Shown here: piece after piece, positions 9,809 through 13,033 of the stretch
Layout: every line of letters begins with the position of its first letter
Position numbering within the stretch: the first letter of the stretch is position 1
Assembly: GCA_024696005.1 (NCBI GenBank)
Contig: JAILHF010000016.1
Span: 1 to 44,012 of the forward strand
Reading direction: 5' to 3'
DNA length: 44,012 bases
Source: Lachnospiraceae bacterium
GTDB lineage: Bacteria > Bacillota > Clostridia > Lachnospirales > Lachnospiraceae
Position numbers and translations under genes: made by a program
Notes under the pieces: generated by a model
Database searches by the model: none
What the model was told of the DNA's origin: nothing
Seen by the model: the letters and a program-made list of their open reading frames with translations, nothing else

Positions 9809-9955
9809 GTTACTGTTCAGTCCCGAGCCACGCACTTCGCTGCGTGGCTACGGGCCGACGCTTGGGCTGGCAGGCTTGCCGCCCATCGGCGAAGCCGATT
9901 ATGCATGGCGGCAAGCCAGTTACGTTCAGTGGCTGGCAAGCCACTGAAAAGTAAC
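9809..9955. mobile_element. 147-bp MITE with terminal inverted repeats and 8-bp target duplication, copy 2
   Basis: The element begins GTTACTGTTCAGT and ends ACTGAAAAGTAAC, a 13-bp inverted repeat with one mismatch (perfect at the right end of copy 1). It is flanked exactly by AAACGGAA at 9801-9808 and 9956-9963, a perfect 8-bp direct repeat, as expected for a transposase-made target duplication. Inside are three strong stem-loops and no gene. No parent transposase lies in the window. It sits between the divergent signalling and pfl promoters. Confidence 0.9.
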
Positions 9956-9974
9956 AAACGGAAAGTCCGGGAGG

Positions 9975-10215: not shown

Positions 10216-12270
10216 ATGAGTCAGGAATTGAGATCAGAATGGGAAGGTTTCACCGGCGGTAAGTGGGTGAACGAGATCGATGTGCGCGACTTCATCCAGA
10301 AGAATTATACGCCGTATGACGGTGATGATTCCTTCCTGGTAGGTCCCACGCAGGCAACCAAGGATCTGTGGGAGCAGGTTCTGGATCTGTCCCGCCAGGA
10401 GCGTGAGGCAGGCGGTGTTCTGGATATGGACACCAAGGTGATCAGCACGATCACTTCTCACGGCCCCGGATACCTGGACAAGAGCAAGGAAAAGATCGTA
10501 GGTTTCCAGACCGACAAGCCTTTCAAGCGTTCCATGCAGCCTTACGGCGGTATCCGTATGGCAGAGAAGGCATGTGCCGACAACGGCTATACCGTAGATC
10601 CCGAGATCAGCGAGTTCTTCTCGGTTCATCGCAAGACACACAACGCAGGCTGCTTCGATGCATACAACCAGGAAATGCGCGCATGCCGTTCCAGCCACGT
10701 TATCACCGGTCTTCCCGATGCTTATGGCCGCGGCCGTATCATCGGTGACTATCGTCGTGTCGCTCTGTACGGTATCGATCGTCTGATCGAGGACAAGCAG
10801 GCACAGAAGGATTCCACCGGCCGCGTGATGACCGACGATGTGATCCGTCTTCGTGAAGAGCTGTCCGAGCAGATGGTAGCTCTGAAGATGATGAAGGAGA
10901 TGGCTGCTTCTTACGGCATCGATATCTCCAAGCCCGCTACCAACGTACAGGAAGCGATCCAGTTCACCTACTTCGGTTATCTGTGTGCAGTCAAGGAGCA
11001 GAACGGTGCGGCAATGAGCCTTGGCCGTACTTCCACCTTCATCGACTGCTACGCAGAGCGTGACCTCAAGAACGGCAAGTTCACCGAGGAAGAGATCCAG
11101 GAGTTCGTTGATCACTTCATCATGAAGCTGCGTTGCGTGAAGTTTGCACGTACACCCGAGTACAACCAGATCTTCGCAGGCGATCCCGTGTGGGTTACCG
11201 AGTCCCTGGGTGGTGTAGGTGTTGACGGCCGTCACATGGTCACCAAGACCAGCTTCCGTTATCTGAACACCCTGAACAACCTGGGTGCGGCTCCCGAGCC
11301 CAACCTGACGGTTCTGTGGTCCACCAGACTTCCTCGTCCCTGGAAGGAGTTCTGCGCAAAGATGTCCATCAAGAGCTCTTCCATCCAGTACGAGAACGAC
11401 GATCTGATGAGAGTTACCCACGGCGACGACTATGCGATCGCCTGCTGCGTATCCTCCATGAGAGTCGGTAAGGAAATGCAGTTCTTCGGCGCACGTGCAA
11501 ACCTTGCAAAGTGCATGCTTTACGCTCTGAACGGCGGTATCGACGAAGTGTCCAAGAAGCAGGTCGGACCGAAGTACCGCAAGTATGAAGGCGATGTGAT
11601 CGAGTATGATAAGTTCATGCCGATGTTTGAAGATATGATGGAGTGGCTGGCAGATGTGTATGTAAACACCCTGAACGTGATCCACTACATGCATGACAAG
11701 TATTGCTACGAGCGCGCACAGATGGCTCTGCATGACAGAGACGTTCGCCGCTACTTCGCAACCGGTATGGCCGGTCTGTCCGTTGTGGCCGACTCCCTGA
11801 GCGCCATCAAGTATGCGACTGTTAAGCCGATCCGCGACGAGGACGGCATCATCGTAGACTTCGAGACCACCGGCGACTTCCCGAAGTACGGTAACGATGA
11901 CGACCGTGTTGACAAGATCGCTCACGATCTGGTAAGCAAGTTCATGATGATGATCCGTCGTCATCATACCTACAGAGACGGATTCCCGACGATGTCCGTG
12001 CTGACCATCACTTCCAACGTGACCTATGGTAAGGCAACCGGTAACACTCCGGACGGACGCCGCAAGGGACAGCCTTTCGCACCGGGTGCTAACCCTCTGC
12101 ACGGCCGTGACACCCACGGTGCAGTTGCATCCCTGAGCTCTGTTGCGAAGCTTCCGTTCAACGACAGCCAGGACGGTATCTCCAATACCTTCACCATCAT
12201 CCCCGGAGCACTGGGTAAAGAAGATCAGGTATTCGCAGGTGATATCGAAGTGGATCTGAGCAAGAAGTAA
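10216..12270 (+). CDS. pflB: Pyruvate formate-lyase catalytic chain lacking the glycyl-radical domain
   Basis: A 684-aa glycyl-radical-enzyme barrel that converts pyruvate and CoA to acetyl-CoA and formate. The adjacent catalytic cysteines are Cys410-Cys411 (Ala-Cys-Cys-Val-Ser-Ser-Met-Arg). The alignable sequence ends at Ala-Leu-Gly-Lys-Glu-Asp, followed by a short non-homologous tail, so the last ~75 residues of a normal ~760-aa enzyme, including the Arg-Val-Ser-Gly-Tyr radical loop, are absent. That part is supplied by the gene at 12577. Codon use is strongly biased and the promoter and ribosome site are near ideal, as for a major fermentation enzyme. The gene is not truncated by damage: the break falls at a domain boundary and the missing domain has its own ribosome site. 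No pflA activase gene lies in the window. Confidence 0.93.
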
Positions 12271-12290
12271 GTTTTAAACAATACCGAATT

Positions 12291-12319
12291 CACGCGCCGA
12301 AGCCAAGCATAGGCGCGTG
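12291..12319 (+). other. Intercistronic stem-loop between pflB and the small Cys-tailed gene
   Basis: CACGCGCC (12291-12298) pairs with GGCGCGTG (12312-12319) over a 13-base loop, and no T-run follows. This looks like a processing or mRNA-stabilising hairpin that could set the ratio of the catalytic chain to the small subunits. Confidence 0.5.
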
Positions 12320-12340
12320 GGTTGCGGAAGAGGTATAAAA

Positions 12341-12559
12341 ATGGACAATAAGAGTATGAGCGAAGAGCAGATGATACAGGATCTGGTTGCACAGCTGGAC
12401 GGCGGTTTCGCCGGCGGCGTGGGCCATGTGAATGTAAACGTGGACGAAAACGCTTCCGAGAAAAAGGAAGTGGAGACCATGGGCTGCACGGACTGCAGCC
12501 GCACGCCTCTCGCATGCTCCGTCCCCACTCTTCATCAGGGACTGGATAGTTACGAATAA
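12341..12559 (+). CDS. 72-aa paralogue of the glycyl-radical domain with a Cys-rich tail and no radical glycine
   Basis: The N-terminal half (residues 15-34) matches residues 12-31 of the following radical-domain protein without gaps, 11 of 20 identical, including Leu-Asp-Gly and His-x-Asn-Val-Asn-Val. After that it diverges: the radical loop Arg-Val-Ser-Gly-Tyr is missing, replaced by an acidic linker and a tail with Cys49-x2-Cys52-x6-Cys59. A GAAGAGG site sits 7 bases before ATG 12341, which is why this start is preferred to an upstream GTG. It lies between the two pfl chains in the same transcript, with codon use like theirs. Inference: it may dock in the same groove of PflB as the radical domain, as a placeholder, redox or metal sensor, or assembly factor. 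No family name is recognised. Confidence 0.75.
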   Translation: MDNKSMSEEQMIQDLVAQLDGGFAGGVGHVNVNVDENASEKKEVETMGCTDCSRTPLACSVPTLHQGLDSYE

Positions 12560-12576
12560 TTTAGGAGGAAAATAAA

Positions 12577-12822
12577 ATGGCAGAAGCAAGCAAAGCACAG
12601 GTAAATAACCTGGTATCTCTTTTGGATGGCTATGCAACCAAGGGCGGCCATCACCTGAACGTCAACGTTCTGAACCGCGATACTCTCATCGATGCGCAGA
12701 AGCATCCCGAGAACTATCCCCAGCTGACGATCCGTGTGTCCGGATACGCCGTGAACTTCATCAAGCTCACTCCGGAACAGCAGCAGGACGTCATCACCAG
12801 AACGTTCCATGAGTCTATATAA
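12577..12822 (+). CDS. Stand-alone glycyl-radical domain of pyruvate formate-lyase (GrcA/YfiD-like)
   Basis: An 81-aa protein equivalent to the C-terminus of pyruvate formate-lyase. The radical loop Arg-Val-Ser-Gly-Tyr-Ala-Val puts the radical on Gly56. The sequence before it (Leu-Asp-Gly, His-His-Leu-Asn-Val-Asn-Val, Pro-Gln-Leu-Thr-Ile) and after it (Asn-Phe-Ile-Lys-Leu, Arg-Thr-Phe-His) is typical. It resembles E. coli GrcA (YfiD), which repairs oxygen-cleaved enzyme; here the catalytic chain has no radical domain of its own, so this protein should be an obligate subunit. AGGAGG lies about 9 bases before the start, and a terminator follows 25 bases after the stop. Confidence 0.9.
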
Positions 12823-12846
12823 TACAACAGGGATTCCTAAAGAAGA

Positions 12847-12880
12847 AAGAGGGACATGCAAGCATGTCCCTCTTTTTTTT
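12847..12880 (+). terminator. Intrinsic terminator of the pfl operon
   Basis: A 14-bp perfect stem, AAAGAGGGACATGC with GCATGTCCCTCTTT, and a long T-run. The stretch from here to 13033 holds no gene that I can support. Confidence 0.95.
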
Positions 12881-13033
12881 TCTATGAGATTTATGCGCGA
12901 ATATAATCCTGAGTTGTTGCAAGTAACCCCGGTTTCGTACGGTTCGAAAGTGTCAAGGCAGTTTCGTCGAGTGGCTTAGCGACGGAATCGGGCGCCGCGG
13001 ACTATATCTGCGTGAAGAAAAAATGCGGATTCC

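Follow-up and report, generated by a model that had tools for sequence, protein, structure and literature searches.

How a pyruvate formate-lyase (PFL) whose radical domain is always detached protects its catalytic cysteines is the question raised by a pfl locus of a Lachnospiraceae bacterium, and with it comes the question of whether a glycyl radical enzyme uses an RNR-like thiol arm. PFL is central to fermentation in gut anaerobes, and the damage that oxygen does to it is a textbook problem. Many gut anaerobes make the enzyme in separate pieces, and a small protein encoded between two of these pieces, for which we use the working name PflT, is apparently a third piece that brings a cysteine pair. 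To our knowledge, no auxiliary thiol subunit was previously known for PFL, and a search of open-access titles and abstracts found no description of PflT or of a cysteine tail carried in cis on PFL. The data point to PflT as a conserved, hitherto undescribed third component of split PFL.

The window, that is, the whole stretch of 44,012 nucleotides analysed (contig JAILHF010000016.1), carries a pflB–pflT–grcA3-like three-gene unit on the + strand at 10216-12822, with the features listed below. Cis-type PflB denotes a large chain that itself ends in a cysteine tail.

10216..12270, + strand: pflB, split pyruvate formate-lyase large chain, 684 aa (TIGR01255, 1094 bits, profile positions 1-665 of 744)
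11443..11448, + strand: codons of the catalytic cysteine pair C410-C411 (E. coli C418-C419), in the motif ACCVSS
12330..12333, + strand: GAGG, Shine-Dalgarno-like, 7 nt 5' of the pflT ATG (from the sequence)
12341..12559, + strand: pflT, 72-aa cysteine-tailed candidate third subunit (open reading frame, homologues and alignments)
12371..12448, + strand: PflT docking half (residues 11-36), made up of the helix IQDLVAQLDGG and the strand GHVNVNV (homology to GrcA and to the beginning of the PFL radical domain)
12476..12556, + strand: PflT cysteine tail, residues 46-72 (homology to the C-terminal tail of cis-type PflB)
12485-12487, 12494-12496 and 12515-12517, + strand: codons of PflT C49, C52 and C59
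12563-12568, + strand: AGGAGG ahead of the grcA3-like gene
12577..12822, + strand: grcA3-like gene, 81-aa glycyl-radical subunit (NF038360, 157.8 bits; PF01228, 86.3 bits)
12742-12744, + strand: codon of Gly56 in the GrcA3-like loop RVSGYAV
12846..12875, no strand assigned: 13-pair inverted repeat, then a T run on the + strand (repeat listed on the - strand)

The window PflB (PF02901, E 7.9e-215) ends ahead of the glycyl-radical helix, strand and loop and has a tail without cysteine; its C410 and C411 columns are invariant in the PflB alignment. The radical helix, strand and loop missing from it are all found on the 81-aa GrcA3-like protein, which scores slightly below the curated NF038360 cut-off of 158. 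The three-gene transcript probably ends at the inverted repeat and T run of 12846-12875. A search for promoter-like sites within 12150-12950 gave none, and no activase gene is present at the window locus between pflB and 14.7 kb; the sequence of this genome that best matches a pfl-linked activase is on a different contig. The host genome also has an additional GrcA-like frame away from pfl. Upstream of pflB, positions 9810-9960 of the window are palindrome-rich (gccacgcacttcgctgcgtggc and similar).

pflT is a real gene under purifying selection. An earlier note on this DNA, made from its letters, had placed a gene with its own ribosome site here, which is borne out by the 72-aa frame and the GAGG preceding its ATG. 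Rapid decay of the frame was looked for and purifying selection was found instead, with dN/dS values of 0.06-0.22 in the nine of 12 relatives for which they were computable, the other three being left out with dS saturated. The codon bias that the gene was said to share with pfl was also recovered, as a modest signal from only 68 codons: scored against pflB usage, pflT reaches -0.13 per codon and is closer to pflB than the five other window genes tested (-0.26 to -0.62), the alternative frames scoring -0.71 (+1) and -0.77 (+2) and the antisense -0.27 per codon. The reading of pflT as a decaying duplicate of grcA was rejected, because dN/dS is low and the tail is conserved. As to a phage or mobile origin, PflT matched no PHROGs family.

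PflT is a chimera of a GrcA-like docking segment and a cysteine tail. The GrcA-type helix and the GHxNV strand of the radical domain are present in its first half, which aligns with GrcA over 33 columns in a profile-profile comparison (hhalign, Prob 96.4, E 1.1e-9), so that the likeness is beyond chance. Against the following GrcA3-like protein, BLASTP (E 6e-5) returned the same 11 identities that the earlier note had counted, over 23 ungapped residues and not the 20 given there. As that note had also read, the radical loop is lost and cysteines are gained: RVSGYAV is absent, C49, C52 and C59 are present, and the loop RVSGYA(V/R) is missing from the PflT family alignments as well. Its proposal that the protein mimics the docking part of the radical domain gains support from the shared docking half and from the genetics that tie PflT to PflB, described below. 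PflT scores 13.4 bits against NF038360, whose cut-off is 158, and passes no NCBIfam cut-off. It has no significant Pfam match, Gly_radical (PF01228) included, weak matches to PF01228 occurring in five of 47 PflT members (best E 0.01), and a PDB profile search with PflT gave no credible relative.

The C-terminal end of PflT, ...TMGCTDCSRTPLACSVPTLHQGLDSYE, follows the pattern C49-x2-C52-x6-C59-x-V-P-T-L-x-x-G-L-D. Among 135 distinct PflT members, 133 have C52, likewise 133 have C59, and 115 have C49; G28 (135/135), P62 (133/135) and T63 (131/135) are kept as well. The spacing between neighbouring tail cysteines ranges from 0 to 9 residues. Conservation of the cysteine motif in relatives, a test set in advance, was found, the motif being the best conserved part. 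In all 12 comparisons with close relatives, the lower dN was that of the tail. The tail is the better conserved portion of PflT, and its being kept better than the docking half is the reverse of what would be expected for a simple mimic.

Small proteins with a PflT-like start were also seen elsewhere. Eight of them (L211, L215, L217, L218, L219, L220, L221 and L226) join a PflT-like helix-strand start, which matches the profile inside positions 2-54 (E 6e-6 to 4e-9 for the loci retrieved), to a different conserved tail, mostly YHHGRCDVGSPWAKG or near it; no constant neighbour was seen by eye, and the group is possibly a sister family of adaptors. In another small family with this start (L164, L165, L169 and L216; E 5e-4 to 5e-7), the cysteines of the tail stand side by side, S-(H/Y)-(K/E)-CC-x2-YG-(R/K)-x-A, and the contexts are scattered.

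When 299 genomes of the family, spanning 298 genera, were searched with the single PflT sequence, 86 gave a match at E <= 0.01; radical domains in intact PFL frames are among the weakest of these matches. Relatives of PflT are encoded on 396 stretches of the GTDB contig collection, of which the best 80 were kept. The PflT profile matched 139 of 299 genomes in the family (the matches listed go down to E 3.8e-5, a level that every full PflT clears by far), 53 of 295 in the order and 6 of 299 in the phylum. Many of the matches in the family and order lie in grcA or in intact PFL and cover no more than the N-terminal part common to these and PflT, and in the phylum search four genomes outside the family match solely inside intact PFLs (frames of 744-775 aa). 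The PflT family is therefore placed in the order Lachnospirales, the rest of the class being thinly sampled.

The order pfl-pflT-grcA on a single strand was found in all 151 loci in which the three genes were present (some fetched twice). Intergenic distances are mostly tens of bases; the extremes are slight overlaps on the one hand and gaps of 222 nt on the pfl side of pflT and 690 nt on its grcA side on the other. No PFL frame adjoining PflT exceeds 728 aa in the unfiltered lists, so that every PflT-adjoining PFL is split; the 94 complete PflBs at PflT loci measure 678-694 aa, frames below 735 aa only being considered. pflT was found without pfl nearby in L122, L126, L127 and L132 and as an unlinked copy in L210, and in L041 the contig ends 256 nt past pflT. 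Extra short grcA genes with no pfl on the stretch retrieved occur at L171 and L222-L225; their genomes have a split pfl locus as well, and the extra genes are perhaps true spares like YfiD.

Where PflT is missing, the cysteine tail is found on PflB itself. We counted 114 genomes with a split pfl/grcA locus, each genome once. A full PflT adjoins the split locus in 71 of them, with a PflB tail that has no cysteine, and in two (G012 and G026) the adjacent PflT ends naturally after CxxC, which brings the genomes with adjacent PflT to 73. In 36 genomes, PflB has a C-terminal tail with two or three cysteines, and a full-length PflT was not found. PflT lies unlinked elsewhere in the genome in four (G130, G282, G297 and G002), and one (G288) has a split PflB with neither a cysteine tail nor PflT. 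Tail cysteines of PflB were counted after LGK; G282, with one cysteine right after LGK and PflT elsewhere, is classed here as unlinked PflT and in the neighbour counts given below as cis (37). PflT copies ending directly after CxxC were seen in L159 and L162, from two genera.

Seen by locus, 36 of the 38 split loci that have a short grcA frame and no adjacent pflT encode a PflB tail with two or three cysteines, these 38 having been picked by eye among the matches listed in the same 299-genome sample, a cis side that covers GrcA matches up to about E 3.7e-32 and none more diverged. Conversely, none of the 172 loci with adjacent pflT (some fetched twice) has a PflB tail with cysteine. Examples of cis tails are ...FAGDLDMELDCPDEACRIPNLMEGLDREF (L172) and ...GCGDMACKVPTLHKGIDDDDNN (L206); outside the cysteines they vary widely (CACCEP, GCCEG and similar). 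In a profile-profile comparison, the PflT tail aligned with the cis PflB tails over 22 columns (E 8.2e-11), based on 21 of the 36 cis tails chosen mainly for the form C...C-x-x-P or alike, with 15 dropped. This cis tail was not in the earlier note.

On the best PflB tree, the cis and trans states changed at least 13 times, and the well-supported branches alone require six changes of the cis label and five of the trans label. The tree was built with FastTree from 111 of 139 PflBs after removal of near copies, and 37 of its 108 inner branches are open. A pairs test on the well-supported branches yielded seven independent pairs, of which five agreed, none disagreed and two showed no difference; its p value of 0.0625 lies above 0.05 because only seven pairs exist. 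Given the genome counts, the homology of the tails and the at least 13 state changes, we are highly confident that the cysteine tail belongs to split PFL as a standing third component, carried either on PflB (cis) or on PflT (trans). The repeated switches provide evidence of the Rosetta-stone type that PflT and PflB work together. They also suggest that the tail may do the work and the docking half deliver it, since it is the tail and not the docking half that 36 of the 38 loci without adjacent PflT carry on PflB.

We propose the following explanation of these arrangements. PflT may be the dedicated third subunit of a naturally split PFL composed of PflB, PflT and GrcA3. Its docking half would allow the cysteine tail to come transiently to PflB, at the GrcA site or close by, and the tail would act while GrcA is off and the catalytic pair C410/C411 is exposed. 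As a flexible thiol/disulfide arm, it could keep C410/C411 reduced, or re-reduce the pair after air exposure, until the docking of GrcA displaces the arm and gives the active enzyme. That PflT or the cis tail is a dithiol arm guarding or re-reducing the cysteine pair of PflB is the reading that we favour by analogy, with a shade more doubt than belief. For PflT itself, we infer a stable complex, a binding site and redox chemistry.

PflT is regarded as a thiol arm acting in trans because it has two conserved cysteines with variable spacing, predicted disorder and a position that is C-terminal or on an adaptor. As GrcA is exchangeable, a split PflB would expose its cysteine pair, which in PFL sits beside the radical glycine (PMC12338860). 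The buffer used for PFL activation in vitro contains 10 mM DTT (PMC10591478). Several points count against the dithiol arm: PFL turnover leaves its cysteines unoxidised, so that such an arm would serve maintenance; intact PFLs manage without one, no cysteine segment being present in 22 of the 23 intact loci examined; most PflT members have three cysteines, which makes a metal site possible; the conserved PTLxxGLD after the cysteines hints at a binding function in addition to thiol exchange; and G288 has neither tail nor PflT, while some PflT genes are unlinked from pfl. At L256 (G096), a single-chain PFL was observed with the three-cysteine segment TCGCEEVTC between the core and the radical domain; it is perhaps a re-fused split enzyme.

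The earlier note had offered a redox or metal switch. Its redox part stands as the best fit of the three guesses made there, and its metal part fares poorly, because only two cysteines are conserved, their spacing drifts and a constant fourth ligand is lacking. Metal is known from related settings, namely the Zn(Cys)4 site of NrdD and the small subunits that carry clusters in certain glycyl radical enzymes, and a tail binding zinc or an iron-sulphur cluster would agree with the C-x2-C-x6-C arrangement of the 109 three-cysteine members among the 135, with D51, present in 124 of them, and with the presence of a ferredoxin-like match at 106 split loci out of 215. The spacing of 0 to 9 residues is expected for a dithiol arm and less so for a fixed metal site, the H65 position holds histidine in only 90 of the 135, and no significant Pfam match exists, which together leave a metal site quite improbable. 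The neighbour counts are uncurated phmmer matches at E 1e-6 over 215 loci that include duplicates, many of them truncated. By the same counts, MecA matches in 52 of the 215, and no thioredoxin or glutaredoxin gene stood out among the recurring neighbours. DUF1858 proteins, examples of which carry CxxC, occur in 71 of the 215 loci and lie next to pflB in L143, L177 and L191, which were viewed; they are a possible redox partner.

The structure models bear on whether PflT is better described as a dithiol arm or as a placeholder. In the latter reading, the PflT helix and strand dock in the empty radical-domain site and the cavity is filled by the tail of PflT or of the cis-type chain. Apo-PflB would thereby stay closed and protected from proteolysis until GrcA takes the place of PflT, with the cysteines locking by mixed disulfide in air. 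Since the window's own pflB and pflT are out of frame with each other, the PflB-PflT read-through chain of a relative (L033) was folded by AF2 from 58 alignment rows with no intact PFL among them. In this model (mean pLDDT 72.6), PflT forms a helix and one short paired strand, HVN, and no other strand. A fused PflB-PflT-GrcA chain modelled by AF2 from 62 rows, 22 of them intact PFLs, had a mean pLDDT of 79.9, with GrcA at about 79-91, and resembled E. coli PFL (TM 0.96 to 2pfl, normalised by the length of 2pfl). With GrcA present, the paired strand is gone and the helix is all that PflT keeps, with block means of pLDDT between 36 and 52. The PflT tail stays below pLDDT 50 in both models.

The models thus suggest that PflT and GrcA may compete for one PflB site and that the tail is flexible, as predicted from fused chains and unlike alignments. 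This loss of the strand when GrcA occupies the predicted site, the docking half common to PflT and GrcA and the proneness to proteolysis reported for E. coli cPFL without its radical-domain end (PMC8683613) would all suit a placeholder. However, cis-type enzymes have just a short tail after the core and no docking half, the tail is predicted to be disordered in both models, and the comparison of the models is itself confounded and weak, because the second alignment holds 22 intact PFL rows and the first none. We therefore regard the placeholder as rather unlikely; it and the recognition element considered next are the main rivals to the dithiol arm, with the metal site less likely.

The window PflB ends near what we take to be residue 695 of E. 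coli PFL. When E. coli PFL is cut there, both the binding and the activation of YfiD are poor, and residues 696-733, needed for YfiD binding, were proposed to form a recognition element (PMC8683613). Because PflB ends near the point where the cut PFL works poorly with YfiD, the split enzyme may need extra help. The tail could provide it by recruiting or orienting GrcA or the activase in place of 696-733, its cysteines being structural or incidental. Such a role would fit the pflA-like match in 178 of 215 split loci (trans 137/172, cis 36/37, other 5/6, some fetched twice) and the conserved PTLxxGLD end. A pure recognition peptide needs no cysteine, though, and the cysteine pair is the most constant element in both arrangements, the rest of the cis tails varying widely. 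A recognition element is in our judgement unlikely.

Another role for a thiol pair would be to quench the radical, the dithiol donating a hydrogen atom via the catalytic thiols and so discharging the glycyl radical before oxygen cuts GrcA. A thiol tail that may lie near C410/C411, together with an exchangeable radical subunit, would suit this, but the tail would have to reach the site with GrcA bound, and it is disordered in the model that includes GrcA; we consider quenching highly improbable. Returning to the dithiol arm, a wider form of the proposal is that the Lachnospirales have a three-part split PFL with an RNR-style arm that moves freely between cis and trans, and that PflT and GrcA alternate at one PflB site, perhaps one per protomer, the dithiol guard being swapped for the radical subunit once oxygen is gone. 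This wider form is possible and, as a whole, doubtful.

Among known systems, the GrcA/YfiD/GrcA3 proteins (TIGR04365, NF008341 and NF038360) are closest in build: like PflT, they are small and have the first half of the radical domain, with its helix and GH-strand, and they act with PflB. Unlike them, PflT has no glycine loop and has a cysteine tail. The name GrcA3 is that of NCBIfam and was not found in the open-access papers searched. The small subunits of 4-hydroxyphenylacetate decarboxylase and benzylsuccinate synthase are likewise small cysteine-containing partners of a glycyl radical enzyme; they bear Fe-S clusters, have more cysteines and are not derived from a radical domain. Their four-cysteine cluster motif is absent from PflT, which has two cysteines family-wide and three in most members.

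The arm of class I RNR is a closer match for the tail. In E. coli NrdA, the C-terminal arm is flexible and ends in a cysteine pair with four residues between (DGCESGACKI); PflB of L177, ending ...DCSNGACQIPNLNDVEDNE, resembles it, and the cis tail DCSNGACQI has nearly the same letters. As in that arm, at least two conserved cysteines stand in the C-terminal tail of the enzyme or its subunit (C52 and C59 in PflT; 36 of the 38 PflB tails at split loci without adjacent PflT). Unlike in NrdA, the cysteines of the PFL tail are followed by PNL or PTLxxGLD. The short NrdA-like motif in cis tails could be convergent or due to chance, and the likeness between the NrdA and PFL tails is likely convergent.

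Oxygen-cleaved E. coli PFL repaired by YfiD offers a parallel for the split itself, since there, too, a loop-less PflB is completed by a separate radical protein (PMC8683613); unlike that case, the split here is genetically encoded. The window PflB, by a length reckoned from the E. coli sequence as we assume it, is about as short as tPFL(1-695), a poor YfiD binder. For the division of the cysteines between chains, the parallel is the split class II RNR of P. aeruginosa, in which NrdJb is a small subunit made as a chain of its own, with C-terminal cysteines that serve the large radical subunit NrdJa, and single-chain relatives carry the cysteine pair in cis (PMC4520616), as with PflT and PflB. 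NrdJb belongs to another enzyme, and the RNR active-site disulfide forms in catalysis, whereas in PFL it would not. The likeness between NrdJb and PflT is one of arrangement only.
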